From Streptomyces sp. NBC_00483 (GTDB lineage Bacteria > Actinomycetota > Actinomycetes > Streptomycetales > Streptomycetaceae): 64,000 nucleotides of DNA. How positions within the stretch are numbered: position 1 is the first letter of the stretch; each line of letters starts with the position of its first letter. Made by a program: the position numbers and the translations under genes. Location: positions 8,184,001-8,248,000 of the forward strand of contig NZ_CP107880.1 of NCBI RefSeq assembly GCF_036013745.1, written 5' to 3'. Of the stretch, positions 39,821 to 61,216 are shown piece by piece. The notes under the pieces are model-generated. The model was not told where the DNA came from. It saw nothing but the letters and a program-made list of their open reading frames with translations, and did no database searches.

Positions 39821-40426
39821 ATGACGAGTCGTATCGCTATTGCCGGAAAGTGTCTTCTCGCGGTGGAGCTGATGGCTGAATCACTTAGCTGCGAAGAGGG
39901 ACTTGAGGTAGTGACCGTCGCCAGTAACTACCAACAGCTGATGCAAGAGGTCGAGCGTAAGAACGCTGACGTCGTCTTGATCGACCCGGACAGGGACTAT
40001 GGGGACTGCGTCGCTGCGGTGGGGAGAATACGTAAGACGCGTCCCGCCTGCGGAGTGGCCCTCGTGGTGGACGCTCCGACGCGGACATTCGTCAACCAGG
40101 CACTGAGGGCCGGGGCGTTGAGCGTCGTTCCCAAGGGCGCCGGGCTGCGAAGACTTGTCGAGTCGGTGAGAGGCGTCGCCTCGGGGCAGCTCGTCATGGA
40201 CCCGCAACTGCTGCTCGCCATGGGCCGGCCGGGCGGCCCGTTGAGTGACCGAGAGGCTGATGTGCTGCGCATGACAGCAGCGGGGGCGTCCGTGAAGGAG
40301 ATGGCTGGTGAGCTCTATCTTTCCGCAGGAACGATTCGTAATCTCGCCTCCGCCGCCATCAAGAAGCTGGAAGCCAGAAATCGCTACGACGCCGTACGCA
40401 TAGCGAACGAACGATGCTTGATCTGA
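39821..40426 (+). CDS. Orphan LuxR/NarL-type regulator with atypical receiver, cluster-situated
   Basis: 201 residues from ATG 39821 (GGGGAG upstream). The N-terminal 120 residues have a receiver-like fold (VVTVASNYQQLMQEVERKNADVVLIDPDRD, VALVVDAPTRTFVNQALRAGALSVVPKG), but the acidic pair expected near residue 8-10 is replaced by A-G-K, so phosphorylation is unlikely. The HTH is complete: LSDREADVLRMTAAGASVKEMAGELYLSAGTIRNLASAAIKKLE. No kinase gene is adjacent. It probably controls the RiPP cluster; shared promoter words support this. Confidence 0.82.
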   Translation: MTSRIAIAGKCLLAVELMAESLSCEEGLEVVTVASNYQQLMQEVERKNADVVLIDPDRDYGDCVAAVGRIRKTRPACGVALVVDAPTRTFVNQALRAGALSVVPKGAGLRRLVESVRGVASGQLVMDPQLLLAMGRPGGPLSDREADVLRMTAAGASVKEMAGELYLSAGTIRNLASAAIKKLEARNRYDAVRIANERCLI

Positions 40427-40452
40427 CCGCCTGGCAGATCACCTGGACTTGC

Positions 40453-40495
40453 GCCGAGTTCCCGGGGCGGACAACATCGCCTCCGGAAACTCGGC
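40453..40495. terminator. Bidirectional hairpin between LuxR gene and the 3,4-AHBA operon
   Basis: Stem GCCGAGTTCCCGG / CCGGAAACTCGGC (12 of 13 pairs) extended inward by GGCG/CGCC. It lies in the 163-bp gap between convergent genes. Confidence 0.65.
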
Positions 40496-40589
40496 TTCTC
40501 ACTGAGTATTTTCAGCGTGTCCACTGATCGGGTAGAGGCGCTGGAGGGCGCAGGCCGTCCTCACGCTCGAGCGGCAACCCTGCAAGAGC

Positions 40590-41699
40590 TCACTGTTCGC
40601 GGCAGAACTCGTCTATCGGATAGCCGACATGCCGGTCGGCCGTCGGCAGATGCCCCAGGATCGTGTCCCCGGGCCGCAGTTCAGTGCTGTTGAGTACCGC
40701 GCCACCGGGGCCGAGGACTCTGACATGCCAGTCGTCCTGGAGGATGAGGTTCACCATCTGCCCGTTGGGAGCGACAGCGTCCACGGAGATCAGGGGTCGG
40801 GTCTCGATCTTTACGCGGCCCACGCTCACCACGCGGGTGCGCCCCTCTGTGTCCACCGCCAACACCTTGCTGCCCGCGACGAGTTCACTCAGGTAGTGCG
40901 TTCGGCCGTGGTCCGACACCGTGTAGGAGTGGATCGCCCCCGCGTTGACCCGGAAGGGGCGTGTCGGCATGTACGGGAGCGGGTGGGTCTCACTGACGCA
41001 GAGGACCATGCCCTTCGAGTGCGAGCCGACGAGGATGCCCTCGTCCTTCCCGAGGTAGCTGCAGGTGTCGACGCAGGCTCGCTCACCCATGCCGATGTGG
41101 GCGGTCGCCGTGACCTCCAGTTCGACGAGCGAGATCTCACCGGACGTCGTACCGGCGGCCCGCCGCAGAGCGGTCGCGTCACCTACGGCGCGCGCGGGCA
41201 TCAGCACGCCGTCCGAACCCAGTTCGAGTACGCCGTAGATGATCTCGGCCTCCGTCACGTCGGCGGCCATGGTCACGATGGTGCCGTCGCAGCCGGCCGC
41301 CGCCGCGATCACGATCTCCAGCGGAATCTTCGTGGGATCGCGGAAGTCGAGCAGGCTCCACTGCTCGGTCCTGGCCGACTGGCAGGCCAGCTCCAGGCTG
41401 TCCGCGTCGACGATCTCCACGTACCGGCCGAACTCGATCGCGGGGTACGCCTGCGCCAGCTTCGCCCGGTCGTCGGTGCCGCCGGCCACGAGGACCAGGT
41501 CGGCGCCCTCGAAGCCGTCGGTCGGCTCGCCCGCGTCGTGGACGAGGACGCGGCGGACCGTGGGCGGCAGATCCGCCAGTGCCGTCATGTCGGAGGAGAC
41601 GACGGCGTCGATGCGTTGGTGGACGGCCTCTTCGAGAACGGCCGGCGTGAGATCGCCCGCCTTGCGTACGTCAAGCCAGCACAGTTTGCTGTCCGTCAC
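40590..41699 (-). CDS. 3-dehydroquinate synthase II-family enzyme, GriH-like (3,4-AHBA formation)
   Basis: 369 residues. The family pattern is clear: FGRYVEIVDADSLELACQSA, LLDFRDPTKIPLEIVIAAAAGCDGTIVTMAADVTEAEIIYGVLELGSDGVLM, GERACVDTCSYLGKDEGILVGSHSKGMVLCVSETHPLPYMPTRPFRVNAGAIHSY. In Streptomyces, GriH of the grixazone pathway belongs here and turns the C7 product of GriI into 3-amino-4-hydroxybenzoate without using the shikimate route. The gene overlaps the GriI-like aldolase upstream by 29 bp, so both are made together. In archaea the same pair makes dehydroquinate; the AHBA reading rests on the secondary-metabolism context. Confidence 0.88.
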   Translation of the reverse strand: MTDSKLCWLDVRKAGDLTPAVLEEAVHQRIDAVVSSDMTALADLPPTVRRVLVHDAGEPTDGFEGADLVLVAGGTDDRAKLAQAYPAIEFGRYVEIVDADSLELACQSARTEQWSLLDFRDPTKIPLEIVIAAAAGCDGTIVTMAADVTEAEIIYGVLELGSDGVLMPARAVGDATALRRAAGTTSGEISLVELEVTATAHIGMGERACVDTCSYLGKDEGILVGSHSKGMVLCVSETHPLPYMPTRPFRVNAGAIHSYTVSDHGRTHYLSELVAGSKVLAVDTEGRTRVVSVGRVKIETRPLISVDAVAPNGQMVNLILQDDWHVRVLGPGGAVLNSTELRPGDTILGHLPTADRHVGYPIDEFCREQ

Positions 41700-42552
41700 G
41701 CTGGTGCCCCCTCGTCATGTGGTCGAAATGTTCGGTGGATACGGCGGGTTCGCCGGCCGGCATGCCCGCCAGGACGGGGCGCCCGTGCACGAGCCGCGCC
41801 ACCCGGCCGGCCATCCTCTGCGGGTCCGCGGACTGGAAGACGCTGCGCCCCATGGCGACGCCCAGTGCACCGCCCGCGACGACCTCCCCGACGAAGTCGA
41901 GGACTCCCTCCTCCGTGGCCCGCGGCGGACCGCCGGCGATGAGGACCGGGACGGGGCAGGCGGCAGTCAGTGCCATCAGGTCGGGCAGTGAACCCGGGAA
42001 GGTCGTCTTGATCAGGTCGGCGCCCAGGTCCGCGGCGATCGTGACCGCGTGGGCCACGAGCTCCGGGTCGTGCGGATCCGGGATCCGGGGACCGCGGGGA
42101 TACACCATGGCCATGAGTGGCAGATTCCAGCGGTCGCAGGCATCGGAGACCCGGCCGAGATCCGCGATCTGGCGGCGCTCATCGTCGGAGCCCAGGTTGA
42201 CGTGCACGCTCACCGCGTCCGCCCCCAGGCGCAGCGCCTCTTCCACCTCCGTGACCAGGTACTTGGCGTCCGGGTCCGGAGCCTGCCCGGTGCTCGCGTT
42301 CAGATGGATGATCAGCGACATCTCGGCGAAGCGCTCCGGACGGATGTGCCGCAGGCTGCCCTTGTGCAGGACGATCGCGTCGACTCCGCCCGCGGCGAGC
42401 TGCTGCGCGAGCAGATCGAGGGAGCTGTTCCTCGGCACCACCGGGCCGTCGCTGATGGAGTGGTCCAGAGGCGTGATCATCAATCCGGTCGTGGTGTGGT
42501 GATGCAGCCGTCGCAAGCGCAACGACCGCGCGAAGTGCCCTTGAGGGATCAT
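41671..42552 (-). CDS. DhnA/FBA-I-type aldolase, GriI-like (3,4-AHBA formation)
   Basis: 293 residues. Start region FARSLRLRRLHHHTTTGLMITPLDHSISDGP matches the opening of GriI/ADH synthase proteins. The Schiff-base Lys is at about residue 182 (GADLIKTTFPGS) and the phosphate-binding end is VPVLIAGGPPRATEEGVLDFV. GriI condenses aspartate-semialdehyde with dihydroxyacetone phosphate to a C7 amino sugar-like compound that GriH cyclises to 3,4-AHBA. The start codon overlaps the ligase stop (ATGA), and its 3' end overlaps the GriH-like gene. Three genes therefore act as one operon. Confidence 0.9.
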   Translation of the reverse strand: MIPQGHFARSLRLRRLHHHTTTGLMITPLDHSISDGPVVPRNSSLDLLAQQLAAGGVDAIVLHKGSLRHIRPERFAEMSLIIHLNASTGQAPDPDAKYLVTEVEEALRLGADAVSVHVNLGSDDERRQIADLGRVSDACDRWNLPLMAMVYPRGPRIPDPHDPELVAHAVTIAADLGADLIKTTFPGSLPDLMALTAACPVPVLIAGGPPRATEEGVLDFVGEVVAGGALGVAMGRSVFQSADPQRMAGRVARLVHGRPVLAGMPAGEPAVSTEHFDHMTRGHQRDGQQTVLA

Positions 42553-44108
42553 TGCGCTTCCTTTTGGCCTCTGAGGTGTGCGTAGTCAGGTTTCCCGGAG
42601 GGGGTGAGCGGTATTTCCGCCCACCGGTGAAATGCGTCCGGGACGTGCGCCGCCGTGAGTTCGGCGGCAATGTGGGAGCGCAGTTCGTCGTCAGAGAATC
42701 GGGCGCTCCCGCGCAATTCAACTGCTGCTTCAAGGCGTTCGATGAACTCCGCGCCGCGCGTTCCGTACACGACGGCGTTCGCCACGTCCGGGTGATTCAG
42801 CAGAACCTCCTGAACCGCCGCCGGATGGACCTTTATGCCGTGGACCTTGACGACGTCGCCGATCCGGCCCACCAGGTGCAGATACCCGTACTTGTCCCAG
42901 TGGCCGAGGTCTCCGGTACGCAGCCAGTCGCCCGCCGCGGTGAGGGCGGCACGGTCTCCTTCGCCGAGATATCCGTCCATGAGTGTGGGCGAGCGGACGC
43001 AGATCTCTCCGGTCGCGCCTCGTTCGACCGGCTCCTGGGAGTCGGGGCGCCAGATCTCCATCTCCACCCAGGGGAACGGACGGCCGACACTCGGCAGCAA
43101 CTCAGGCTCATAGTGGTCGAGCGGGATGAGCGTGCACATCCCGCCGGCCTCGGTGCTGCCGTACAGCTGGACGAGTGTGTCGCCAAAGACCTGTGAGGCC
43201 TTGGCCGTTCGAGAGGGCGCGGCGGCTGTGCCGCTGTAGAGGACCTGGCGAAGGAACGGGAAGGAAGCCCGGTCGATCCCCGGGCTGTCGATGAGCTGGT
43301 ACAGGTGTGGCACCGCGAGGTACGTGTCCGTCACCCGGTGCTCGGCGAGTGCGTGCAGCACGTCGTGCACATCGAAGCCGTTGTGCAGAACGATCGAGCC
43401 ACCTGCGGCCAGCGCCGCGTCGGCCATCGTCGCTGTGGCGTGGCTGATCGGCGTCACCAGCAGCAGCGTGGGCCGGTGCTCGGGCGGCAGCGATCCGAAC
43501 GACAGGTTGACGAGGCGCCCCCGCACGCCGAACGACCGGCGTACGAGCTTGGGGCTTCCGGTGGTGCCACTGGTGAGGTCGACGACGGCCGGGTTCTCCG
43601 GGACGAAGGGCGCGGCCGTCGGCAGATCCGTGCCGCCGCTCGTCGTGGCCGCGTGGTCGAGGATGAGCAGGACGGTGCCTGCCCGGCCGTTGCACAACAC
43701 CTGGCCACGCGGGGAGTTGGGCTCGTCGGCCAGTACCACGCGCGCGCCGGTCGTTTGCAGCAGCCGGGCCTGCTCGGCTGCGGGCAGCTCGTCCTCGTCG
43801 CTGCGCGCATTCATCGACCGGATGTGGATGACGGCGGCGCCCAGCAGATGGGCGGCGTACCGTGCGGCAAGCATGGCGGGGGAGTTGGGTTCGGTGAGAA
43901 CGGCCACCGTGTCGGTGGGGCCGACCCCGGCACCGGCGAGGGATACCGCGGCATCGGTGATGAGCCGGTGGAATTCCGCGGCGGTGAGATCGCCGTCCCA
44001 GGAGTACACGGCGGTCTTCGCCGGATCGGCTTCGAGGTGCCCCAGGATCCGCAGAACATAGTTCGGCGTCTGTTGGCTGCTTTCGCTCAGCACCTGTCCC
44101 ACAGACAT
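42549..44108 (-). CDS. Adenylate-forming aryl acid ligase (probable 3,4-AHBA activation)
   Basis: 519 residues from ATG 44108 (AAGGA upstream; the frame is open 37 codons further). ANL-superfamily motifs: P-loop SGTTGSPK at 180-187, YGSTEAGG at 316-323, TGDLGHWDKYGYLHLVGRIGDVVKVHGIKVHP around 398-430, and the catalytic Lys in PSGKPDY at residue 506. First gene of an operon with the two 3,4-AHBA enzymes, so its natural substrate is probably 3,4-AHBA, activated as the acyl-AMP or thioester. No carrier protein or acyltransferase gene is recognisable in the cluster. Substrate is inference from context. Confidence 0.82.
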   Translation of the reverse strand: MSVGQVLSESSQQTPNYVLRILGHLEADPAKTAVYSWDGDLTAAEFHRLITDAAVSLAGAGVGPTDTVAVLTEPNSPAMLAARYAAHLLGAAVIHIRSMNARSDEDELPAAEQARLLQTTGARVVLADEPNSPRGQVLCNGRAGTVLLILDHAATTSGGTDLPTAAPFVPENPAVVDLTSGTTGSPKLVRRSFGVRGRLVNLSFGSLPPEHRPTLLLVTPISHATATMADAALAAGGSIVLHNGFDVHDVLHALAEHRVTDTYLAVPHLYQLIDSPGIDRASFPFLRQVLYSGTAAAPSRTAKASQVFGDTLVQLYGSTEAGGMCTLIPLDHYEPELLPSVGRPFPWVEMEIWRPDSQEPVERGATGEICVRSPTLMDGYLGEGDRAALTAAGDWLRTGDLGHWDKYGYLHLVGRIGDVVKVHGIKVHPAAVQEVLLNHPDVANAVVYGTRGAEFIERLEAAVELRGSARFSDDELRSHIAAELTAAHVPDAFHRWAEIPLTPSGKPDYAHLRGQKEAQ

Positions 44109-44212
44109 CCCCGCCCCATCCTTCTTGTTTCTTCCTGGATTCCCTCCAGTGGGGTGATCAGAGATAATGCTGGGAGCTTCGTGGGTGGTCCGCAAGCGTC
44201 GGACGGTCGAGG

Positions 44213-44385: not shown

Positions 44386-45918
44386 ATGCGGCCTGGTACC
44401 CCATGGCCCGAAGTCGAGTGCGTCGAGTACTCCGTGGGCTTCCGGGACGACGTCCGGGTTGAATTCGATGCCGCGTCGGTCAGCCTCGCCACGCCGGCGA
44501 GCACCTTCGCCGTGCGTCTCCCCGCGGGGGGCACGCGTGACGCGCTCGCCGCGCTTGCCGGAGGGCTGGTCCCGCTGGGGGAGACCCTCGACGGGTTCGA
44601 GCCCGCCGAACGCGAGCGCTTCCAGCGCCTGTTGGCCCGTCTCGGCCGGCTGGTCGAGTTCGGTGTGGCCGTCGGCGGCCGCGAACTGATCCGGTTCCAG
44701 CAGACCGGGCAGGACACTGATCCGGCCACCACGGTGGTGGGGCCGGACGACGTCGTGCGGCTGTCCCGGTTCGCCCTGTGCCGCAGCAGGTCCGGAACGT
44801 TGGTGCTGGAGTCGCCGCTGGCGTCGGCGCGGGCGTTGCTGGTCCACCGGACGGCCCGGACCCTTGTCTCCTCGCTGGCCGCCGGCCGACGCGTTGGTGA
44901 TCTTGCTGAGCAGGATGGCGGCGATCTCGCACTGCCAGAAGTGTGCGCGCTGTTGGGCGTGCTGGTCGGCGCCGGACTCGTCGAATGCCGTTCCGCAGGA
45001 GAGGAGTTTGAGACCGAGGAGAACTCGACCTTGCGGCAGTGGGACTTCCACGACCTGCTCTTCCACTCGCGCATCCGCAGCGGCCGCCACGACGCCCCGT
45101 TGGGCGGCACGTTCCCGCACCGGGGGGAGATCGCTCCCCGGCCCGCGGTCAAAGCCGTGCCCGACGGCCCCTCCATCGAGCTGTACCGTCCAGCCCTGGA
45201 AGAGATCACGGGGCGAGACCCCGGGCTGACGGCGGCGCTCGAAGGGCGCAGGTCGTTCCGCAGCTACGGAGAACAGCCGCTCACCGCCGAGCAGATCGGC
45301 GAGTTCCTCTACCGGGTCGGCAGGGTCAGGACGCGGTTCGTCCCCGCGCCCGACGATGAACCAGGTGGTGAGATCGTCTCGCGGCCCTACCCCACCGGAG
45401 GGTCGTCCTTCGAGCTGGAGCTGTACCTGACCGTTCAGCGCTGTGACGGCATCGACCCGGGCATCTACTACTACGACCCCGTCGCGCACCGGCTCGTGCT
45501 GGTGAACGACGCCCACCAGGACCGCCGGGCCATGCTGGAAGTGGCGTCCGTCTCGACGGCCAGAGAGGCCGACCCCGACCTCCTGATCACGATGACGTCC
45601 CGCTTCCAGCGCCTGTCCTGGAAGTACAGCGGCATGGCGTACGCGACGACCCTGCGGCACACCGGCGTGCTGTACCAGACCATGTATCTCGTGGCGACTG
45701 CCATGGGCCTGGCGCCCTGCGGGCTGGGCATCGGGAACTCGGACATGTCGGCGCGCGTCCTGGGCCTGGACTATCTCCAGGAATCGTCCGTGGGCGATTT
45801 CATCCTGGGTAGCCGGCCGCCGGGCGACCCCGGGATCTGGGACCGGGAGCAGGGCTGGGAGTGGGTCAACGACCCGGAGTGGGCTGCCTGGGCGGGTTCG
45901 AAGCTGAGGCGTGCCTGA
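44386..45918 (+). CDS. SagB/ThcOx-type azoline dehydrogenase
   Basis: 510 residues from ATG 44386 with GGAGG 5 bases upstream; the frame is open from 44167 but the leading part has no coding character. An N-terminal ~240-residue region (DDVRVEFDAASVSLATPASTFAVRLPAGGTRDALAAL, then a helical part) is followed by the nitroreductase domain from about residue 285 (EGRRSFRSYGEQPLTAEQIGEFLYRVGRVRT, EIVSRPYPTGGSSFELELYLTVQRC, RQLSWKYSGMAYATTLRHTGVLYQTMYLVATAMGLAPCGLG region). SagB-type FMN enzymes oxidise azolines to azoles in TOMM RiPPs. It stands alone, followed by a strong terminator. Confidence 0.9.
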   Translation: MRPGTPWPEVECVEYSVGFRDDVRVEFDAASVSLATPASTFAVRLPAGGTRDALAALAGGLVPLGETLDGFEPAERERFQRLLARLGRLVEFGVAVGGRELIRFQQTGQDTDPATTVVGPDDVVRLSRFALCRSRSGTLVLESPLASARALLVHRTARTLVSSLAAGRRVGDLAEQDGGDLALPEVCALLGVLVGAGLVECRSAGEEFETEENSTLRQWDFHDLLFHSRIRSGRHDAPLGGTFPHRGEIAPRPAVKAVPDGPSIELYRPALEEITGRDPGLTAALEGRRSFRSYGEQPLTAEQIGEFLYRVGRVRTRFVPAPDDEPGGEIVSRPYPTGGSSFELELYLTVQRCDGIDPGIYYYDPVAHRLVLVNDAHQDRRAMLEVASVSTAREADPDLLITMTSRFQRLSWKYSGMAYATTLRHTGVLYQTMYLVATAMGLAPCGLGIGNSDMSARVLGLDYLQESSVGDFILGSRPPGDPGIWDREQGWEWVNDPEWAAWAGSKLRRA

Positions 45919-46156: not shown

Positions 46157-46330
46157 ATGAACACCGTCGTCAACTCTGCCGACATCGAGCAGGTCTTCGA
46201 CTCCTTCGACGTGACCGAGCTGGAGGTCCTCGAGGTGTCGCAGGGCGTCGCCCTTCCCGAGATGGGCGCCTCCGGCGGCACCAGCGGCACCTCGTCCTCC
46301 TCGTCGACCTGCTCCTCGTCGACCTGCTGA
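46157..46330 (+). CDS. Thiopeptide-type precursor peptide
   Basis: 57 residues from ATG 46157 with GAGGAG 6 bases upstream. Residues 1-38 form an acidic leader (DIEQVFDSFDVTELEVLEVS, then LPEMGA) in the style of thiopeptide leaders, which end in MGA or VGA before the first core Ser. The core is residues 39-57: S-G-G-T-S-G-T then SSSSSTC and SSSTC, 16 of 19 being Ser, Thr or Cys. The C-terminal SSSTC unit is a perfect 15-bp duplication. Only two Cys are present, so most azoles would be oxazoles or methyloxazoles and many Ser/Thr would be dehydrated. Its own promoter and terminators make it a separate transcript. Confidence 0.88.
   Translation: MNTVVNSADIEQVFDSFDVTELEVLEVSQGVALPEMGASGGTSGTSSSSSTCSSSTC
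46298..46327 (+). repeat. 15-bp tandem duplication in the core-peptide codons
   Basis: TCCTCGTCGACCTGC occurs twice in a row, each encoding SSSTC, with no base difference, directly before the stop codon. It indicates recent slippage or unequal exchange. Confidence 0.95.
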
Positions 46331-46427: not shown

Positions 46428-46928
46428 TCAGCCCTTGCGGGCGACGTGCAACGCGGTCGTCCACAGGACAAGGGCGGCGCCGAAACCCAGCAGGACGCGG
46501 CCGCGCTCGGCGTCACCACCGCCGAGCGCCACCGCACCGACCAGCGCGAGTGCCATCAGCAGCCCGCCGGTCCACCAGTACTGCGGCTGGGCGAAGGTCC
46601 GCGCGAGCGGCAGGAAATGTGCCCCGACGACGAGGCACACGGCCGCGGGAATGTACACCCACTGGCCGAAGTGGCCCAGGATGAACACGGCGGCGACGAT
46701 CGCCACGGTCTGCCCGATGTTGACCCTGCCGAACACCCGGAAGCTGTTGGCGGCCACCCGGCGGCTGCGTCGTGGTCCTGGCGACATCCCGAACCGGATC
46801 GTGAGCACCACCGCTGCGACAGCCAGAACTACGGCCACGGCTGCTATGCCGACCAATGCCGACCCCGGCACCCGCGGTGCGATACCGGAGACTCCCAGGA
46901 TTTCCCATATCGACGCGAAAACGGACAT
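46428..46928 (-). CDS. Multi-pass membrane protein of unknown function within the RiPP cluster
   Basis: 166 residues from ATG 46928; a GTG at 46991 would add 21 hydrophilic residues and neither start has a strong ribosome site. Five hydrophobic segments: GSALVGIAAVAVVLAVAAVVL, TVAIVAAVFILGHFGQWVYI, AAVCLVVGAHFLPLA, GGLLMALALVGAVALGG and VLLGFGAALVLWTTALHV, separated by basic loops (RFGMSPGPRRSRRVAAN). No family recognised. Position between precursor and modifying genes suggests self-protection or export, but this is inference. Confidence 0.7.
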   Translation of the reverse strand: MSVFASIWEILGVSGIAPRVPGSALVGIAAVAVVLAVAAVVLTIRFGMSPGPRRSRRVAANSFRVFGRVNIGQTVAIVAAVFILGHFGQWVYIPAAVCLVVGAHFLPLARTFAQPQYWWTGGLLMALALVGAVALGGGDAERGRVLLGFGAALVLWTTALHVARKG

Positions 46929-47029
46929 GATAACCGCGCCCTGCAAAGGTCGGTTCTCGCTCAATTTTCGCCTGTCGGGTTCGTTGATCACCTGGGCATT
47001 CTATCCACCGCTCGCTCGCGAAACGCGGC

Positions 47030-47106: not shown

Positions 47107-48276
47107 ATGAGTGCCATGAGAGCCCATGCGCCAACAGACCGTAGCGACGCCCCCGTGACAGGCCGGCCCACCGGGGTCCGGCTGTTCACCCGGGCACCCG
47201 TGACACTGGCGTGGCTCTCCGCGTCGGTGGTGCCCGTCGCCCGTTCCGTACAGGAGAGCGGCGGCGCCGTCGTACGGCTGCGGCGAGGTTGGCTGCACGG
47301 CCCGCACGTGGATGTCATCGGGCGCGGGGCGCTCGGGCAGGAGCTCCCCTGGTCGTCCGTGGCGCAGCGGATGGACGCCGGCCCGCTGCCCGCGGACCGG
47401 GCGCTGAACGAGGCGAAGTACCTGGAGCAGGCTCGGGAGTTCGGCCGGCTGGAAGCGGTCGCGCCGCCGTACCTCCCGATGCGCGAGCACGGTGACGTCG
47501 AATTCCTCGGCCCCGACGAAGGGGTCGTGCGCGATCCCCTGCTGCGGGACCTGCGCGAGGCGGAGATCGTGCACGGCGTGCTGTGCCCGCCGCTTATGAA
47601 CACCATCGACGAGGTGGCGAAGGACCGCTCCCTGGCCACCCCGCGGCTTGCGGAGGCATTCCTCGCGCTCGGCGACTCCTACTTCCTGGGCCTCGCCCAC
47701 GGTGCCTTCTCGTTCCGCTCGCATGCCGAGGCCTTCTTTGCCTGGGCAGCCCCCAGCAAGGACATGCGCCCCGTGTTCGCCGCACGGCTGGCCAAGGAGG
47801 CTCCCGTGCTGCGCGCGCTGGTGGAGCAGCGCCTCGCCGGGCGCGTCGGCCCCGCGGCCGCCGAGTGGCGTACCGCGTTCGCCTACTCCACGGGCACGCT
47901 GGACAGCGCGGTGATGGACGGCCGGCTGACTCCGGCGATGCTGGACGCGGTCAACTCGGCCGTCGACAACACCGGCACGGGACCGCCCACCGCGCCGGAG
48001 GTCGTACCGCAGGGAACCCACCCCGATACCGCGTTCCACCGCGCCGCGGTGGAATCCGGGGTGATCGACGATCCGACGCCGTGGTTCGCCGCGTACCGCC
48101 TGCTGATCAACCTCTTCTACCAGCAACTGCCGCTGCTCGCCGTCTCCCCGATCCAGCGCTATTACATGTGCTACGCGCTCGCCGAGACCATCGACGAGGT
48201 GCTCGGCGAGACCTGGCAGGAGCGCCTGGACAAGGGCCGGGTGCGGTGGGAACAGACCCAGGGGGCGGCCCGATGA
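47107..48276 (+). CDS. Divergent LanB C-terminal-like protein, candidate thiopeptide [4+2] pyridine synthase (TclM/TbtD-like)
   Basis: 389 residues from ATG 47107 (an ATG at 47116 is also possible). It aligns by pattern with the Lant_dehydr_C fold: APVTLAWLSASVVPVARSVQESGGAVVRLRRGWLHGPHVDVI corresponds to the W..H...FFIRYW..GPHLRLR segment of the protein at 56004. Helical regions follow (GDSYFLGLAHGAFSFRSHAEAFFAWAA, YRLLINLFYQQLPLLAVSPIQRYYMCYALAETIDE). Pyridine synthases are diverged members of this fold and ~350-400 residues long. First gene of an operon of seven or eight overlapping genes. Assignment rests on fold, length and exclusion, as the other small LanB-like protein fits the elimination role better. 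Confidence 0.65.
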   Translation: MSAMRAHAPTDRSDAPVTGRPTGVRLFTRAPVTLAWLSASVVPVARSVQESGGAVVRLRRGWLHGPHVDVIGRGALGQELPWSSVAQRMDAGPLPADRALNEAKYLEQAREFGRLEAVAPPYLPMREHGDVEFLGPDEGVVRDPLLRDLREAEIVHGVLCPPLMNTIDEVAKDRSLATPRLAEAFLALGDSYFLGLAHGAFSFRSHAEAFFAWAAPSKDMRPVFAARLAKEAPVLRALVEQRLAGRVGPAAAEWRTAFAYSTGTLDSAVMDGRLTPAMLDAVNSAVDNTGTGPPTAPEVVPQGTHPDTAFHRAAVESGVIDDPTPWFAAYRLLINLFYQQLPLLAVSPIQRYYMCYALAETIDEVLGETWQERLDKGRVRWEQTQGAAR

Positions 48277-54479: not shown

Positions 54480-55989
54480 GCCGACGCAGGTCAGGCGGGC
54501 GCCCGTCGACCTGCCGGCCCCGTTCGGCGACAACAACATCGAACGCGAGCCGCTCTGGTACGCATTCGGCGCGGGCGATGACGAACCGGCCGTGCCGCCC
54601 TGGACCTGGGTGGACCAGCCGCCGATGACCGCGCACACGCACCCGCCGGACCCGTCGTGCGTTCGCGGCGGGGCGCGCGCCGAACTGCCCGGGGAAACCC
54701 ATGAGTTCCTCGACCGTGCGGCCTTCCCACACGGTCGGGTGGCCGTCGCGGACCCCGACGAAGCGCTGATGCGGGCGCTCGTCGCGACCTTCGGCGTGCA
54801 ATGGGCCGACCCCGACAACGTCTACAACCCGCACCGCGGTTACGCCTCCCCCCGCTGCCTCTACCCCGTCCAGGTCTTCGTGGACGACGGGGAACGCTGG
54901 AGCCTGCTCGAACCCGAGCGGCACACCCTGACCGCGCTCACCTCGGGCAGCCACCGCGGACGGCAGCGCCGGATCGCACTGACCGGCCGATACACCCGCA
55001 TCCCTCGCGGCTACAAGTGGTTCCGTGGCTCCCTGGTGAATCTGGAACTTGGGATCGTGCTGCGTTCACTGGCGTTGTCCCTCGAACTGTTCGGGCTTTC
55101 CGCCAGGATGGTGCTGCCGCACGAGGGCTCCGCCGCGCTTCTGGAAGAACTCGGTCTGACGCCGAGCTGGGAATGGTCCCTGCCGGCGGTCATCGAGATC
55201 GGTCCCCGATCCACGGCCCCTGCCCCGTCATGCCACGTCTCGAAGCCGGAGGAGCAGCCCGAGGAGCCCGCGCTCCGTGACCTGGTGCGCGTCAACCGCA
55301 CCCAAGCCTTCGGCGACGCCCCAAGTCCTGTGCCCTCCGCGATTCCGACACATGCGCTGCCCCCTCCTGGCACGCCGTCATGGGCCGAGCTGATGTGGCG
55401 GCGCAACTCGGGCCGGATGCCTCGCGGGCTGCTCGGAATGAGCGGACGGCGCACCCGCACGACCGCGGGATCCGTCGAGGACGCCATCGGGTGGCTCGGC
55501 GTCCCGCCGCCGGGGCGGGCCCTCGCGGCCGTGTCGGATCTGATCGCTCTCACGGTCGTCACCCAGGATGTGTCCGGCTACGAGGACGGCATCCACCGGG
55601 TGCGCTCGGGCAAGGCCGTCACGCTGTCCGCCGACCGGACTGCGGCGGCCCGCCTGGAGGCGGAGTACGGATACGGGCTGAGCACGGACGCGGGCTGCGA
55701 CATCCGCAATGCCTCGGCGATCTGGTTCATGTCCGTGAAGCCGCGCGAGCTCTTCGCGCGCCTCGGTGCCAACGGCTGGAGCGCGGCCCAGTACTGGTGC
55801 GGCTGGGCCCTGCACGGACTGTGCCTGTCCACCACGGCGTACGGCATGTTCGCGCGTCCGGTCCGGGCGTTCAACGAGATACCCGCGCAGCGGATCCTCC
55901 AGCTGGATCCCGACGAGATGATCGCGCTCGCCGCGGTGGTCGGCGCGCCCCGGTACGCGACCCATGCGCTGCTGGACATCAGAGTCTGA
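54457..55989 (+). CDS. Nitroreductase-fold protein, second dehydrogenase-like component (TbtE-like)
   Basis: 510 residues from ATG 54457, overlapping the YcaO 3' end by 23 bp. Two partly similar halves: the first carries HTLTALTSGSHRGRQRRIALTG, YKWFRGSLVNLELGIVLRSLALSLELFG; the second carries LMWRRNSGRMPRGLLGMSG and WSAAQYWCGWALHGLCLSTTAYGMFARP. Both resemble nitroreductase-type FMN folds as in thiopeptide azoline dehydrogenases. With the SagB-type enzyme at 44386 the cluster has two such proteins, so one may be catalytic and the other structural, or they act on different rings. The FMN-contact residues are hard to place in this one. Confidence 0.65.
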   Translation: MTRTRSHEPTQVRRAPVDLPAPFGDNNIEREPLWYAFGAGDDEPAVPPWTWVDQPPMTAHTHPPDPSCVRGGARAELPGETHEFLDRAAFPHGRVAVADPDEALMRALVATFGVQWADPDNVYNPHRGYASPRCLYPVQVFVDDGERWSLLEPERHTLTALTSGSHRGRQRRIALTGRYTRIPRGYKWFRGSLVNLELGIVLRSLALSLELFGLSARMVLPHEGSAALLEELGLTPSWEWSLPAVIEIGPRSTAPAPSCHVSKPEEQPEEPALRDLVRVNRTQAFGDAPSPVPSAIPTHALPPPGTPSWAELMWRRNSGRMPRGLLGMSGRRTRTTAGSVEDAIGWLGVPPPGRALAAVSDLIALTVVTQDVSGYEDGIHRVRSGKAVTLSADRTAAARLEAEYGYGLSTDAGCDIRNASAIWFMSVKPRELFARLGANGWSAAQYWCGWALHGLCLSTTAYGMFARPVRAFNEIPAQRILQLDPDEMIALAAVVGAPRYATHALLDIRV

Positions 55990-56003
55990 CAGAGGAGAAC
56001 GCC

Positions 56004-56930
56004 TTGCCACAGCAGACAGCGGCCGAGCAGGTGACCACGGGGACCGGTACGGCCTGGTCCGCCTGGCACCTGCACCTGGCCTCGAACGCACAGTCATTGC
56101 TCGACCGTGTGGTGCAGCATGTGATCGCCCCGGTGGTGCAGACCCTCGACGGCGCGCCCTGGTTCTTCATCCGGTACTGGGAGGCGGGCCCCCACCTCCG
56201 GCTCCGCATCGGCGACCTGAGCCCCGCGGAGCACGACCGGGTGGAGGCGCTGCTGCGTGAACTGCTCGCCACCGCGGGCCGGCCGGCGGAGGGCGAGGTA
56301 GTCCTCAAAGAGGAGGCGTACCGAGCCGAGGCCGGACTGCTCGCTCGCGGGGAGTACGGCAGCGACCACGCCGTTGTCGCGCTCCGGCCGCCGGGCGTGC
56401 ACCGTGCCGTCTACGAGCCGGAGACCGAACGGTACGGCGGCCCCACCCTGATGCCCGCAGCCGAGCGGTTGTTCCAGCGGTCGAGCGAGCTGGTGGTCGC
56501 GCTGCTGCCCCACGTGTCGACGCCACAGACCCGCTCCGCGCTCGCACTGCGTGCCACCGTCTCCGCGGCCGCCGCCCTCGGCGACGGAGCCGAACAGGCC
56601 CTGTTCTACGCCCACAGCCTGACGGCCTGGCGGGCCTGGGCGGCCGGCCTCGGCAGCACTCCCGCCGAACTCGACCGGCTGTGCCACATCCCCGAGGGAA
56701 CCGCCAAGCCCGTCGACCCGGACCAGCACGGGCCCTTCGTCAACTGGCATGCGGCCCTGACCGACTTGGTCCGGGAAATCCGCGTCACAACAGAACACGT
56801 GCCCGGGCAGATCGTCGTCTCGCACGTGCACATGCTCCACAACCGTCTCGGCCGCACACTCTTCGACGAGCTGCGCACCTACGCGTGGCTGGAGCGCGCC
56901 TTCCCCGTCCACCAGGAAGTGCGGACATGA
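56004..56930 (+). CDS. Thiopeptide-type LanB C-terminal (elimination) subunit, TbtC-like
   Basis: 308 residues from TTG 56004, chosen because AGAGGAG lies 7 bases upstream and no ATG/GTG fits better. Lant_dehydr_C/SpaB_C family pattern: WSAWHLHLASNAQSLLDRVVQHVIAPVV, then PWFFIRYWEAGPHLRLRIGD, and the C-terminal VSHVHMLHNRLG with the following helix. This domain removes the glutamyl group to give dehydroalanine and dehydrobutyrine; it completes the split dehydratase with the protein at 48273. Overlaps the next gene by ATGA. Confidence 0.88.
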   Translation: MPQQTAAEQVTTGTGTAWSAWHLHLASNAQSLLDRVVQHVIAPVVQTLDGAPWFFIRYWEAGPHLRLRIGDLSPAEHDRVEALLRELLATAGRPAEGEVVLKEEAYRAEAGLLARGEYGSDHAVVALRPPGVHRAVYEPETERYGGPTLMPAAERLFQRSSELVVALLPHVSTPQTRSALALRATVSAAAALGDGAEQALFYAHSLTAWRAWAAGLGSTPAELDRLCHIPEGTAKPVDPDQHGPFVNWHAALTDLVREIRVTTEHVPGQIVVSHVHMLHNRLGRTLFDELRTYAWLERAFPVHQEVRT

Positions 56931-58150
56931 CCGGCCGCCCGCGTATCGCCGTGGTGGGATCCGGCATCGGCGGCCTGACGCTGGCAGCGGCCCTCGCCGA
57001 GTCCGGTACACCCTGCGAGGTATTCGAGCAGACCCGCGCGATGGCCGAGATCGGCGCCGGGGTGCAGCTGGCTCCCAACGCCGCCTGTCACCTCCAGCGT
57101 CTCGGCATCGGAGCGGCACTCACCCAACACGCCGTCCCCATCGAAGAGATGCACATGTACGGCCGCCGGGGCGACCTGATCACGAGCACACCGTTCGGCG
57201 CCGCGTGCGAAAGGCTGTACGGGGCGCCCTACTACGCCGTGCACCGCGCCGACCTTCAAGGGGCGCTGCTCCGGCTGGTCGGCCCCGAACCGCTGCGACT
57301 CGGGCACCGGTTGACGAGTGTCGCCGCCGACGGCGACGAGCAGGTCCTCACCTTCGAGAACGGCTCCACGCACCGCGCCGACCTCGTGGTGGGTGCGGAC
57401 GGCATCCACTCCGTGATCCGAGAAGAACTCGTCCGGGACGCACCCGTCTTCTCCGGCCTCGGCGTCTTCCGCGGACTGATTCCGGTCGACCGGCTGCCCG
57501 ACGCGGCACGGGAACCGCTGATCAGGATGTGGCTCGGTCCCGGCCGGCACCTCGTCTGCTACCCGGTGTCCGGTGGCCGCCTGTTGAGCTTCGCGGCGAT
57601 CGCCCCGCTCGCCGCGGCGACGGCGGAGTCCTGGTCCGCGCAGGGCGACCCCGCCGCGCTCATCGACGCCTTCGACGGGTGGAGCGGCCTCGTGCCCGAC
57701 ATCACCCGCGCTGCGGACACCGTCCGCCGGTGGGCGCTGTACGACAGGCCGGTCCTGCACACCTGGTCGGCGGGCCGCCTCACCGTGCTCGGCGACGCCG
57801 CCCACCCCATGCTCCCGTTCATGGCGCAGGGCGCGAACCAGGCCGTCGAGGATGCGGTGGAACTGGCCTCGCTGCTCGCAGGCGCCGGCACCGACGAGAT
57901 TCCGCAGCGGCTGCGCACCTACGAGCAGGCCCGGGCCCCGCGCGCGGCGGCGATCCAACAGGGATCACGCGGCCACTCGGAGACGATGCACCTGCCCGAC
58001 GGACCGCGGCAGCGTGAACGGGACCAGGCGCTGCGGCACGCCGCGGGCATTACCGGCCTGCGCGAGCGAGCCTGGCTATACGGCCACGAGGCCGGCGCTC
58101 GGCCCTCGCAGCGCGCGGCAACAGCAGAGGAAAGGGAATCAGCGTCATGA
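56927..58150 (+). CDS. FAD-dependent aromatic monooxygenase (salicylate hydroxylase-like), first of tandem pair
   Basis: 407 residues from ATG 56927. Group-A flavin monooxygenase: GSGIGG at residues 10-15, VVGADGIHS (DG motif) near 155, and LGDAAHPMLPFMAQGANQAVEDAVEL (GD motif) near 285. Best fit is the salicylate/3-hydroxybenzoate hydroxylase group, which adds or replaces ring groups next to a phenol with NAD(P)H and O2. A likely substrate is 3,4-AHBA, or an aromatic part of the peptide. The next gene is its paralogue; both share the LPDGPxQ motif near the C-terminus. Confidence 0.9.
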   Translation: MTGRPRIAVVGSGIGGLTLAAALAESGTPCEVFEQTRAMAEIGAGVQLAPNAACHLQRLGIGAALTQHAVPIEEMHMYGRRGDLITSTPFGAACERLYGAPYYAVHRADLQGALLRLVGPEPLRLGHRLTSVAADGDEQVLTFENGSTHRADLVVGADGIHSVIREELVRDAPVFSGLGVFRGLIPVDRLPDAAREPLIRMWLGPGRHLVCYPVSGGRLLSFAAIAPLAAATAESWSAQGDPAALIDAFDGWSGLVPDITRAADTVRRWALYDRPVLHTWSAGRLTVLGDAAHPMLPFMAQGANQAVEDAVELASLLAGAGTDEIPQRLRTYEQARAPRAAAIQQGSRGHSETMHLPDGPRQRERDQALRHAAGITGLRERAWLYGHEAGARPSQRAATAEERESAS

Positions 58151-59337
58151 CGGACACCAGCCTGCGGGTCGCCGTGGTCGGGGCGGGAGTGTCGGGACTC
58201 GCGCTCGCCATCCTGCTCCGCCGCCGCGGCGTGCGCTGCGACGTCTACGAGAAGTCAGCAGCGCTCGGCGCGGCGGGCGCGGGGATCCAACTGTCCCCGA
58301 ACGGGGCCCGCATACTCCACGAGCTCGGTGCCGAAGCGGCGCTGCGCCGCAAGGGCATCACGGCGCAGGCCATCGAGACGCGCCGCTGGAGCGACGGCAC
58401 GCTGCTGTCGCGTGCCCCGTACGGAGACGCCTGTGTCGAACGGTTCGGGGCGCCGTACCACCTCGTGCACCGAGCCGACCTGCAGGCCTGCCTCATGGAG
58501 CTGCTGCCACATGGCGGCTTGTCCCTGGGGCGGGCGGTGGACAGCGTCGTGGACCACGAGAGCCACGCCGAACTGCGTTTCACGGACGGCGGATCAGTGA
58601 CGGCCGACGTGGTGGTCGGCGCCGATGGAGTGCACTCCGCGGTACGCTCCGCCGTGCTGGACGACCGGCCGGTCCACGCGGGTTACTCGGTGTACAGGGG
58701 ACTCGTATCAGCCTCCTCCGTACCCTCTTTCACGACCGACCCGCGGGTCATGTTCTGGTTCGGGCCGGGTCGCCACGTCACCTACTACCCTGTCTCGTCC
58801 GGACGGACGGTTCACTTCAGCGCGGTGTGCGCCGACCCGCACTCAGGCACAGGCCCAGGCAGGGCTCCCGCCGACACCGAAGGGCTCATGGCCGAGTTCG
58901 AGGGGTGGCACGAGGATGTCCGGCGGGTGCTGAGCACCGCGGACTCGGTGACGCGTTGGGACCTCTTCGACCGGGACCTGTCCCACCGGTACGTCACCGG
59001 ACGGGTCGCCCTGTCCGGCGACGCGGCGCACCCCATGCTGCCCTTTCTCTCCCAGGGCGCGAGTCAGGCCCTGGAGGACGCCGTCGTCCTGGCGGACGTC
59101 CTCACCCGGCACGGTGACGACGTGCCGGGCGCCCTGCGCGCGTACGAAGCCGTTCGGATGCCCCGTACCGCCGAGGTGCACCGGCAGTCACGCCTGCGGG
59201 CCGATTCCTTCCACCTCCCGGACGGTCCTCAACAGGCGGCCCGCGACGCCGAGTTGACACACCACCAGGACCTCTCTCACCTCGACTGGCTCTACCGGGC
59301 CGACCTTCGTCCGGCACCGGCCCTCGCCGGGCGCTGA
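58147..59337 (+). CDS. FAD-dependent aromatic monooxygenase, second of tandem pair
   Basis: 396 residues, coupled by ATGA. GAGVSG dinucleotide motif near residue 11, VVGADGVHS, and LSGDAAHPMLPFLSQGASQALEDAVV. Clearly related in sequence to the upstream protein and probably a tandem duplicate that has diverged. It could carry out a second oxidation on the same aromatic unit. Last gene of the operon, followed by a bidirectional hairpin. Confidence 0.9.
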   Translation: MTDTSLRVAVVGAGVSGLALAILLRRRGVRCDVYEKSAALGAAGAGIQLSPNGARILHELGAEAALRRKGITAQAIETRRWSDGTLLSRAPYGDACVERFGAPYHLVHRADLQACLMELLPHGGLSLGRAVDSVVDHESHAELRFTDGGSVTADVVVGADGVHSAVRSAVLDDRPVHAGYSVYRGLVSASSVPSFTTDPRVMFWFGPGRHVTYYPVSSGRTVHFSAVCADPHSGTGPGRAPADTEGLMAEFEGWHEDVRRVLSTADSVTRWDLFDRDLSHRYVTGRVALSGDAAHPMLPFLSQGASQALEDAVVLADVLTRHGDDVPGALRAYEAVRMPRTAEVHRQSRLRADSFHLPDGPQQAARDAELTHHQDLSHLDWLYRADLRPAPALAGR

Positions 59338-59366
59338 CAGGTCCGCTGATCAGGCACGAACGACAG

Positions 59367-59394
59367 GGCGGGGCCACCCGGAGGCGGCCCCGCC
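59367..59394. terminator. Bidirectional hairpin between the monooxygenase and ABC genes
   Basis: Perfect 9-bp stem GGCGGGGCC / GGCCCCGCC with a 10-base loop, in the 74-bp gap between convergent genes. Confidence 0.7.
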
Positions 59395-59411
59395 GTCCGT
59401 GCGTCCGCGGC

Positions 59412-60230
59412 TCACTCTGGCCGCGGATCCCAGCGGAACCGCCGTACGGCCACGACCGCGCCCAGCACGCCCCACGCCGCCAGCACCGCAAGCTGCTTCC
59501 AGCCGTAACCGCCGGACGCCCCGGTCATCGCTGCCAGCAGGGCCTCGTTGAAGGGCCTGACCGGTAGCAGCCCGGCGACGGTGTTCAGCGTGCCGGCGTG
59601 GATGGGGAAGTAGCTTCCCGAGATGAACACCAGTGGGAACTGGATGAACTGCACCAGGGCGGGCGCCGATTCGGCACTCCTTACCAGTGAGGCGACGCCG
59701 GCCCCGAGGGCGCAGAAGCTCGCGGCGCCCAGCACCAGGATGAGGGCGAGCTCCGCCCAGTGGGCGGGCAGCGGGACACCGTAGAGCCTGCCCACCCCGA
59801 TGACCAGCACGATATCGATGACGCTGACCAGCACACAGTGAGCCAGCAGTCCGACGAAGTAGATCCAGGCCGGAAGCGGGGTCGTGCGCAGCCGCTTGAG
59901 CATCCCGGTCTGCCGCCGGGTCGACAGCACGATGGCCAACTGGCCGTAGCAGGCTCCTAGTACGGAGACCGCTGCGATCGTCGGTGTGTAGTACTCCATC
60001 CCGGACAGGCCGAAGTAGAAGTCGGACTTCTCGGTGCCGCCGAACACCGCGCCGAAGATGGTGACGACGAGCACCGGCAGCAAGAACGTGAAGACCGTGG
60101 CCTGCGGATTGCGCCAGAAGGAAAGCTGCTCGTAACGGATCTGATGCATCACGAGGCGTGCGCGCCCGCGGCCCGCTGGGCCCGCAGGAAGGGAGGTGGC
60201 GGCCGCGGGAGCCGACGTCGAGACGGTCAT
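59412..60230 (-). CDS. ABC-2 type exporter permease (DrrB-like)
   Basis: 272 residues from ATG 60230, which overlaps the ATPase stop (ATGA); the frame is open further upstream but that part lies inside the ATPase gene. Six hydrophobic segments with the ABC-2 pattern (WRNPQATVFTFLLPVLVVTIFGAVFGG, AAVSVLGACYGQLAIVL, HCVLVSVIDIVLVIGVG, LALILVLGAASFCALGAGVASLV). Together with the ATPase it probably exports the RiPP product and gives self-resistance. Confidence 0.9.
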   Translation of the reverse strand: MTVSTSAPAAATSLPAGPAGRGRARLVMHQIRYEQLSFWRNPQATVFTFLLPVLVVTIFGAVFGGTEKSDFYFGLSGMEYYTPTIAAVSVLGACYGQLAIVLSTRRQTGMLKRLRTTPLPAWIYFVGLLAHCVLVSVIDIVLVIGVGRLYGVPLPAHWAELALILVLGAASFCALGAGVASLVRSAESAPALVQFIQFPLVFISGSYFPIHAGTLNTVAGLLPVRPFNEALLAAMTGASGGYGWKQLAVLAAWGVLGAVVAVRRFRWDPRPE

Positions 60231-61216
60231 GTGCGGCTCCGGTTCCGTCGGCGCCGACGCGCGCCGGACTGCTGAGGCTCTCCGACTCCACCGACCTTGT
60301 CGGCTTCGCTGTTCTCGAAGGAGCGGGTGATGTCGAGGTAGACGTCCTCCAGCGAAGGCCGCTCGACGGACAGTCGCTCGAGCGTCGTGCCTTGGCTCAG
60401 TGCCCATCCGGTCAAGGAGTGCAACAGGGCGGTAGGTTCTGGCACTTCGATGTGCACCAGGCCGTCCTTCACCGTCAGGCCCCTCGACACCGGCAGGTCC
60501 GCAAGTTCCGTGGCTTCCGGCAGTTCGAAACGAATCCTGGCGAGCGCACGGTCCCTCCCGCCGAGTTTGGCCGGCGTGCCCGACTCGACGATCCGGCCGT
60601 CCGCGATCACGGCCACGGAGTCGGCGAGCGCCTGCACCTCGTCCATGTAGTGCGTCGTCAGCACGATGGTGGTGCCGGAGTCCCGCAGTTCCCGTACCAG
60701 CTCCCAGGCGCTGCGCCGCGCACTCGGGTCGAAGCCCGTGGTGGGCTCGTCGAGAAACAGCAGCCGCGGGTCTCCGACCACGCCGAGTGCCAGGTCCAGA
60801 CGCCGCTTCTGCCCGCCGGACAGGTCTTTGACCCTGGCACCCCGCCTCTCCTGCAGACCGACCAGTTCGATGACCTGGTCGACGTCCCGGGGCGCCCGGT
60901 AATACCCGGCATCTCGCGCGATTGTCTCGCGCACGGAGAGATACGGTTCGACGGGGTTGTCCTGCAGGACCACCCCGACCCGCTCCCGCAACTCACCACT
61001 GGCCTCGGGGGCCTGGGGGTCCACGCCGAGCACCTCCACCCGGCCCGTGTCCCGGCCGCGGAAACCCTCCAGAATCTCCAGGGTGGTCGTCTTGCCCGCG
61101 CCGTTGGGACCCAACAGTGCGAAGATCTCGCCCTCAGCCACGGCGAAGTCGATGCCGCGCAGTACATCGCTACTTCCGTAGGCCTTCCGCAGGCCTTCCA
61201 CCACGACCGCCGTCAC
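60227..61216 (-). CDS. ABC exporter ATP-binding subunit (DrrA-like)
   Basis: 329 residues. Walker A GPNGAGKTT near residue 37, Q-loop VGVVLQDNPVEPYLSVRE, signature DLSGGQKRRLDLALGVVG, Walker B LLFLDEP, H-loop LTTHYMDE. The C-terminal ~100 residues follow DrrA, ending in a long basic tail (ARRRRRNRSR). Belongs with the downstream permease; antibiotic-exporter subfamily. Transcribed toward the biosynthetic operon and read convergently with it. Confidence 0.93.
   Translation of the reverse strand: MTAVVVEGLRKAYGSSDVLRGIDFAVAEGEIFALLGPNGAGKTTTLEILEGFRGRDTGRVEVLGVDPQAPEASGELRERVGVVLQDNPVEPYLSVRETIARDAGYYRAPRDVDQVIELVGLQERRGARVKDLSGGQKRRLDLALGVVGDPRLLFLDEPTTGFDPSARRSAWELVRELRDSGTTIVLTTHYMDEVQALADSVAVIADGRIVESGTPAKLGGRDRALARIRFELPEATELADLPVSRGLTVKDGLVHIEVPEPTALLHSLTGWALSQGTTLERLSVERPSLEDVYLDITRSFENSEADKVGGVGEPQQSGARRRRRNRSRT

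Follow-up and report, generated by a model that had tools for sequence, protein, structure and literature searches.

Analysis of a 64,000-nucleotide stretch of the Streptomyces sp. NBC_00483 genome (NZ_CP107880.1, positions 8,184,001–8,248,000; hereafter the window, in whose own coordinates its genes are placed), taken from a single-contig genome of 10.24 Mb, revealed a conserved-family cluster in which thiopeptide genes stand beside a GriI/GriH-like pair for 3-amino-4-hydroxybenzoate (3,4-AHBA) and an adenylating ligase. We assign a probability of about 0.5 to the reading that this one cluster directs a pyridine-type thiopeptide carrying a 3,4-AHBA-derived unit, with the ligase capping the C-terminal carboxylate of the peptide. 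That the peptide and the 3,4-AHBA unit meet in one molecule is, judging from their linkage, very probable; that they are joined at the peptide C-terminus through the aryl amine has a little under an even chance. The genes concerned are as follows.

40590–41699, minus strand: GriH-like member of the 3-dehydroquinate synthase (DHQS) II family, proposed 3,4-AHBA synthase (PF01959, DHQS, E 1e-107; tree)
41671–42552, minus strand: GriI-like DhnA/MJ0400-type aldolase, proposed first step to 3,4-AHBA (PF01791 E 2.6e-49; PDB 2qjg E 9.1e-66)
42549–44108, minus strand: ANL ligase nearest to McbA, proposed coupling enzyme (PF00501, AMP-binding, E 2.8e-55; best PDB sequences 6sq8/6h1b)
44386–45918, plus strand: SagB1, cyanobactin-oxidase-like azoline dehydrogenase, accessory (TIGR03605 160.8 bits, over cut-off; PDB CyaGox E 8e-68)
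46157–46330, plus strand: thiopeptide precursor (Pfam Thiopep_pre E 4.3e-12 and NCBIfam thiazolyl_B E 2.2e-17, both over cut-off)
47107–48276, plus strand: pyridine synthase, TbtD/PbtD-like (NF045556 E 8.5e-30; PDB PbtD E 3.5e-18 using the family profile)
48273–50876, plus strand: LanB glutamylation half, TbtB-like (PDB 6ec7 E 1.5e-14, residues 60–227)
50873–52540, plus strand: TbtF/ocin-ThiF-like candidate partner of the YcaO protein (position; 1/10 family members match TIGR03693 at E 0.0034)
52530–54479, plus strand: YcaO cyclodehydratase (PF02624 E 4.7e-66, the sole PF02624 match in the genome; TIGR03604 and TIGR03882 over cut-off)
54457–55989, plus strand: SagB2, second dehydrogenase, in the TbtE position (present in 26/26 assembled clusters; 4/11 family members match TIGR03605, best 0.0013)
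56004–56930, plus strand: LanB elimination half, TbtC-like (PF14028 E 1.2e-36; TIGR03891 E 2.6e-29, over cut-off)
56927–58150, plus strand: FAD1, flavin monooxygenase resembling 3-hydroxybenzoate 6-hydroxylase, proposed aryl-unit hydroxylase (PF01494 E 3.7e-31; NF006021 275.6 bits, below the cut-off of 459)
58147–59337, plus strand: FAD2, second flavin monooxygenase, 42% identical to FAD1 (PF01494 E 1.2e-28)

Family models, PDB matches and coordinates placed every gene named in a previous sequence-only reading of this stretch where that reading had put it or a few bases off. Its list lacked the second dehydrogenase (54457–55989), the flavin monooxygenases (56927–58150 and 58147–59337), an ABC exporter (59412–61216) and a membrane protein (46428–46991).

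Linkage of 3,4-AHBA genes to thiopeptide genes

The joining of 3,4-AHBA-type genes to thiopeptide genes, proposed from the window alone, was borne out across genomes. We scanned 392 Streptomyces genomes, scoring the best 5 and the best 4 candidates per genome in two scans, and found some pyridine-synthase match in 60 and a GriH match in 84. A gap in the E values was used to pick a close set of 22 genomes (E 7.5e-98 or better), spanning 47–100% pyridine synthase identity to the window, and a distant set of 38 (3.4e-29 or worse). GriH lay on the same contig in 22/22 genomes of the close set, at a distance of 6,514 to 18,157 bases, whereas in the distant set it was found anywhere in 3/38 and within 20 kb in 0/38 (Fisher p 7e-17, nominal because the genomes are related). 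This difference argues that the join is not accidental. It also contradicts the view of an ordinary thiopeptide cluster with primary-metabolism or resistance genes as chance neighbours, to which the membership of GriH in the DHQS II family lends some colour and which we regard as highly improbable.

A pyridine synthase profile built from 20 members, run against a collection of 84,980 species, yielded 29 loci. GriH was within the fetched stretch in 21 of them and on the same contig, beyond the stretch, in five more (L027, L031 and L042–L044); L029 and L040 end at contig edges and were counted neither for nor against linkage. Among 16 genomes searched from these 29, GriH was found in 15, the exception being that of L049. 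Another 394 genomes sampled from the class (pyridine synthase E 1e-40 or better) added five carriers, three of them from other families, with GriH within 20 kb in four and the fifth lying on an 11.8 kb contig. The same linkage is found outside Streptomyces, in Micromonospora musae and three genomes of other families. Two entries with shared coordinates (G075 and G055) were treated as one genome.

From these loci 26 clusters were assembled, some joined from neighbouring stretches and some incomplete, including a near-identical locus (L022) in Streptomyces sp. NBC_01016. The ligase, GriI, GriH, the YcaO protein and SagB2 were present in all 26, with the DhnA-type aldolase and the DHQS-II-like synthase always adjacent. 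The orientation and position of GriH vary between subtypes; its presence does not. In the window, the GriH-like protein scored 571.7 bits with NF041224 (BagC_FevH, its best NCBIfam model; cut-off 750) and the GriI-like protein 361.9 bits with NF041223 (BagB_FevI; cut-off 500), both being 'exception' models, and exceeded the cut-offs of subfamily NF002625 and of NF005556, respectively. A PDB sequence search with the GriH-like protein returned no match.

A tree of 51 GriH proteins, 30 linked to thiopeptide genes and 21 from other loci that we selected among the scan matches, placed all linked members on one side of a single branch (support 100/99), which was recovered in 200/200 bootstrap trees. 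None of the 21 other loci (16–20 kb stretches) contained a pyridine synthase, LanB or YcaO gene. The sequence-only reading had named as fatal to its proposal a separate locus in related strains holding the Gri genes and lacking the peptide genes; the tree split and the 22/22 linkage instead keep the Gri genes of this family with the peptide genes. Pairwise divergence of the pyridine synthase followed that of GriH, with r 0.97 over 28 clusters and a Mantel r of 0.96 over 18 non-redundant ones, a value that 0/2000 permutations reached. The simplest reading of this shared gene content, conservation and co-divergence is that the module was assembled once and has since been passed on as a whole, across clusters whose pyridine synthases share as little as 46% identity.

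Two loci showed additional copies. In Micromonospora musae (L052, 7673–18352), the Gri genes and a multicopper oxidase are accompanied by an additional pyridine synthase (52%) and a further, distant YcaO match (24%). Streptomyces smaragdinus RB5 has two diverged ligase copies in one cluster (L053, 5797–13676) and a second GriH/GriI locus elsewhere (L057).

Core peptides and maturation enzymes

The thiopeptide type of the cluster, as the sequence-only reading had it, is upheld by the precursor, the two LanB halves, the YcaO protein, the dehydrogenases and the pyridine synthase. Counted from the Ser of GAS, the window core is SGGTSGTSSSSSTCSSSTC. We collected 34 distinct related cores, all 34 of which end in Cys, a count that holds for the search pattern, which catches only PE(M/L)(G/A)AS-type cores and itself includes the Ser of GAS. 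Because all of these cores end in Cys, the C-terminus of the product should be an azole-4-carboxylate. Three forms are prominent: that of the window; SSGSIGTSSSSSSTCSAC, which frequently occurs in two copies; and a Cys form, of which SSGDTTCCSSSSSSSSCCCC is an example. The stretch that follows the GAS Ser is variable in length and letters, and the Ser run and tail are conserved. Thr and Cys exchange at fixed core positions, which fits azole sites. Leader-like open reading frames with no core, perhaps decaying precursors, were seen in S. megasporus (L056, 8890–9469) and Streptomyces sp. NRRL S-37 (L041, 8680–9086) and were left out of the core count.

Our own alignment, which used the L156 precursor, also with GAS and which we take to be lactazole-like, would equate the first core Ser of lactazole with the Ser of GAS. 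In the excerpted text of PMC7210931, Ser1 and Ser12 of lactazole form the pyridine, smaller rings are tolerated, and the second Ser may have an oxazole formed from Ser ahead of it. A classical 26- or 29-membered ring was dropped as a candidate for the present family, the Ser that it requires (the second of SGGTSGT) being Val or Gly in related cores.

Gene names of the TbtA–TbtG series serve here as labels. The protein at 47107, described in the sequence-only reading as a second LanB-C-like protein, is present, and its label has to be changed to pyridine synthase on the evidence of NF045556 (104 bits, below the equivalog cut-off of 325) and PDB PbtD. The split LanB at 48273 and 56004 held up. 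The first half had no match to Pfam or NCBIfam models at a threshold as loose as E 1 and was recognised through PDB 6ec7, named in its entry 'Lantibiotic dehydratase domain protein' and presumably TbtB; PF14028 and TIGR03891 identify the second. At 50873 the predicted gene stands, and its ocin-ThiF label is weak: one in ten relatives matches TIGR03693, at E 0.0034, and the window protein itself does not. Position and conservation suggest a thinly supported ocin-ThiF-like identity better than the family model does. Likewise, the window's own SagB2 has no TIGR03605 match. Neither it nor the 50873 protein of the window matched any other family model searched, and a PDB profile search with SagB2 was empty.

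SagB1 was present in 16/26 assembled clusters and absent from 10, as well as from two of the four uncut clusters among the further class-wide carriers. Wherever a core was read, it accompanied 'GT-Ser run' cores and was missing with 'CC-Ser run' cores. A role for SagB1 in the aryl pathway was rejected on this distribution, which follows core type; since its presence tracks the core, SagB1 more likely serves an azoline of the core, and the pattern suggests a dehydrogenase tuned to oxazoline.

Proposed pathway and operon layout

Homology predicts the reaction type of each enzyme. The YcaO protein, its partner and the dehydrogenases would convert Cys, and some Thr and Ser, into azoles; the split LanB would turn Ser into dehydroalanine (Dha); and the pyridine synthase would join the GAS Ser with a Ser of the run, releasing the leader. 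GriI and GriH would make 3,4-AHBA. The McbA-like ligase would convert a carboxylate into its adenosine monophosphate (AMP) ester and couple it straight to an amine with no carrier protein, the carboxylate most likely being the C-terminal azole acid of the peptide and the acceptor the amine of 3,4-AHBA. FAD1, and with it FAD2, would hydroxylate the aryl unit. The order of these steps is only a presumed one.

The ligase overlaps GriI by 4 bases and GriI overlaps GriH by 29, so that the three genes probably form one transcript. On the opposite strand, the genes for the pyridine synthase, LanB, the 50873 protein, YcaO and SagB2 overlap serially, and a 14-base gap after SagB2 is followed by LanB-C, FAD1 and FAD2, with ATGA overlaps joining LanB-C to FAD1 and FAD1 to FAD2. 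Through these overlaps, an aryl-type hydroxylase is coupled to the peptide genes in the window, and the ligase to those for the aryl acid.

The ligase and the proposed site of joining

The nearest PDB sequence to the ligase was McbA, followed by ShABS. McbA was also the structure nearest to the predicted ligase model, whereas ShABS tied with coenzyme A (CoA) ligases by fold, in a comparison that re-aligned Foldseek's own matches and made no fresh search. With motifs named as is general for the ANL superfamily, the C-domain lysine, K506 of GKPD, was invariant in 22/22 aligned ligases. Two residues pointed out in McbA, D201 and E221, which need not be requirements of the family, are not kept and are replaced by His and a variable residue. 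McbA couples a heteroaryl carboxylate to amines within one active site, according to the excerpt of PMC6282839. No PF00550 carrier domain was detected in the 64-kb window, where a diverged carrier could escape detection, and this is at most consistent with amide formation free of CoA or carrier.

Sister clusters bear on which partner is activated. L049, G003 and G732 share the sister core SSGNA(L/V)CCSSSSSSSSSCC, and their ligase directly adjoins a condensation domain of the non-ribosomal peptide synthetase (NRPS) type (L049, 1147–4134; G003, joined from L151 and L152, 17315–20288; L150, 5534–8524), confirmed by Pfam in L049 only and found by tblastn with the L049 domain in G003 and G732. What stays constant is the Cys-ending peptide with the ligase, and what is exchanged is the donor of the second part, a pattern that speaks for the peptide supplying the carboxylate and 3,4-AHBA the amine. 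Excerpts describing asukamycin (PMC11213898) and ClxA (PMC12519233) give precedent for the 3,4-AHBA amine as an acceptor. The sister clusters themselves possibly make RiPP–NRPS hybrids (RiPP, ribosomally synthesized and post-translationally modified peptide).

Several observations weigh against this assignment. Some concern the sister clusters themselves: in the stretches read, neither the Gri genes nor FAD1 was found near the ligase in L049, G003 or G732, the L049 and G003 genomes had no GriH match, and GriH of G732 lies on another contig. L049 has a broken frame, the G732 contig is short, and the G003 locus, possibly a remnant, shows nothing more across 38 kb than a fragmentary pyridine synthase gene along with the membrane protein, precursor, ligase and condensation domain. 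Others lie in the window and point to different chemistry. The ligase overlaps GriI and is co-directional with GriI and GriH, and its invariant His resembles aryl-CoA ligases (excerpt of PMC6282839), both of which favour a ligase that activates the carboxyl of 3,4-AHBA and attaches the aryl group to the peptide at a Ser/Thr hydroxyl or at a free amine, giving an aryl ester or amide in a nosiheptide-like manner with no carrier. The ligase–GriI–GriH genes are moreover oriented opposite to the RiPP genes, as would suit two separate products, a thiopeptide alongside a small molecule made from 3,4-AHBA (pigment, quinone or phenoxazinone), whose genes are kept together for joint use or regulation.

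Activation of the aryl acid has a parallel in nosiheptide, where NosI, by the reasoning of the authors in the available part of PMC5585349, acts on the aryl acid and not on the peptide. Against it, pyridine synthases of the TclM/TbtD/LazC type release the leader as an amide (excerpt of PMC7210931), which would leave no free N-terminus; the window has no carrier domain match, and no acyltransferase family appeared among the cluster proteins scanned; and three sister clusters retain the ligase with no Gri genes nearby. We consider this route unlikely, at well below even odds. Two separate products would accord with the multicopper oxidase of 12/26 clusters, an enzyme of a kind able to oxidise aminophenols, and with the small molecules that other 3,4-AHBA clusters yield (excerpts of PMC10179220 and PMC11429834). 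That view is opposed by the 22/22 linkage at 47–100% pyridine synthase identity, the co-divergence and the single GriH branch, as well as by the coupling of FAD1 to the RiPP operon in the window and the retention of GriH in 26/26 clusters despite its shifting orientation and position, and we judge it improbable.

Flavin monooxygenases and multicopper oxidase

FAD1 was present in 22/22 genomes of the close set; FAD2 is optional or was not observed in every cluster. Homologues of the FAD proteins (43–53%) adjoin GriH in 8/21 compared loci that have no thiopeptide genes, a count that excludes a 28% match in L098, and two further near-full-length homologues at 39% or more lie outside the cluster in the same genome. 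Because of these homologues beside GriH, with two elsewhere in its own genome, FAD1 probably acts on the 3,4-AHBA unit. The constancy of the flavin monooxygenase and its occurrence near GriH elsewhere would fit an aryl unit that is an altered 3,4-AHBA, for example 3-amino-2,4-dihydroxybenzoate, an aminohydroquinone or an epoxyquinone, changed before or after joining. Such alteration is a tentative proposal, compatible both with C-terminal capping and with activation of the aryl acid; it would change the decoration only and leave the pathway plan the same.

Laccase-type multicopper oxidases can oxidise aminophenols. The multicopper oxidase of this family, identified by Pfam and whose N-terminus we read as a presumed twin-arginine signal, was rejected as a general feature, being present in 12/26 clusters and not in the window. 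The sequence-only reading had also raised closure of the ortho-aminophenol to a benzoxazole; gene content gives this no support, with no amidohydrolase family seen among the cluster proteins in general scans, in which none was searched by name. Diazo chemistry was set aside, no CreD/CreE-like family having been noticed among the cluster proteins in the same general scans, again with none searched by name.

Relation to known systems

With the thiomuracin/GE2270 (Tbt, Pbt) and lactazole systems the family shares the PE(M/L)GAS leader, a Ser/Thr/Cys-rich core, YcaO, split LanB, a dehydrogenase and a TbtD/PbtD-like pyridine synthase. It differs from them in its constant Gri/ligase/FAD module, in a conserved Ser-run tail with Cys at its end in every core read, and in a stretch of varying sequence separating GAS from the Ser run; many of its clusters add SagB1 and the multicopper oxidase. 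The likeness to thiopeptides bearing indolic or quinaldic acids, which the sequence-only reading had drawn, stands only in outline. Nosiheptide and nocathiacin, as far as the excerpt of PMC5585349 describes them, likewise pair thiopeptide genes with an adenylating ligase and a dedicated source of aryl acid, but they use an indolic acid made by a radical SAM enzyme, the carrier protein NosJ and the transferase NosK; in the present family the acid belongs to the 3,4-AHBA type, and no PF00550 match was found in the window.

The GriI/GriH pair is shared with grixazone, the manumycins, bagremycin/ferroverdin, cremeomycin, the ahbamycins and the closoxazoles. Flavin monooxygenases stand nearby in 8/21 of the compared GriH loci, and the ahb cluster has ligases and oxygenases (excerpt of PMC10179220); unlike the present family, all 21 lie across the GriH tree branch and, in the stretches read, have no pyridine synthase, LanB or YcaO. 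ClxA, in the text excerpted from PMC12519233, resembles NatL2 and phenylacetate-CoA ligases, a subfamily other than that of McbA. The dehydrazoles were ruled out as a match, a LanM-type enzyme being used there (excerpt of PMC10676384). No description of such a cluster was found among the matches listed in the full-text thiopeptide literature, a coverage that excludes most subscription journals.

Other genes in and around the cluster

The remaining genes of the cluster are as follows.

39821–40426, plus strand: LuxR-type response regulator (PF00196 E 2.3e-13, PF00072 E 1.8e-9; homologue in 23/26 assembled clusters)
46428–46991, minus strand: conserved membrane protein with no known family (homologue in 28/29 pyridine-synthase loci)
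59412–60234 (start codon our choice), minus strand: ABC-2 exporter membrane protein (PF01061 E 4.3e-20 on 59412–60407)
60227–61216, minus strand: ABC exporter ATPase, DrrA-like (PF00005 E 3.1e-29; TIGR01188 220.1 bits, below cut-off)

The membrane protein had no Pfam or NCBIfam match, and a homologue is absent from six Cys-type clusters among the 26; as a guess, it may be an immunity protein. A hydrolase of the STM4013/SEN3800 family adjoins the cluster (62174–62971; NF038075 over cut-off). Scans of the window gave no Rfam match at gathering score and no tRNA. Elsewhere in the same genome (contig C1, 575–652 kb), open frames of 13,867 and 13,025 codons carry many carrier-protein domains, marking a large locus of the NRPS or polyketide synthase (PKS) type.

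Significance

The family may represent thiopeptides with an aryl-amine module, whose hybrid molecule may be new to the literature. More speculatively, and with odds clearly against it in its full form, it could be a new thiopeptide class: a stand-alone amide bond synthetase would attach 3-amino-4-hydroxybenzoate to the C-terminal azole acid of the ribosomal peptide, and the FAD enzymes, in some lineages together with the multicopper oxidase, would turn this cap into a hydroxylated, quinone-like or epoxyquinol group. The resulting peptide antibiotic would bear a reactive aryl warhead, and what is conserved in it would be a Dha/azole tail and not a ring. The family ranges over Streptomyces, Micromonospora and at least three other families of the class. 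The occurrence of a 3,4-AHBA module in some members and an NRPS module in others, beside the same kind of ligase, is a natural experiment that makes the coupling rule directly testable. If the proposed capping is true, a carrier-free ligase coupling a non-amino-acid aryl amine to a RiPP would open the way to capped thiopeptides and might serve as a portable means of modifying peptide C-termini.

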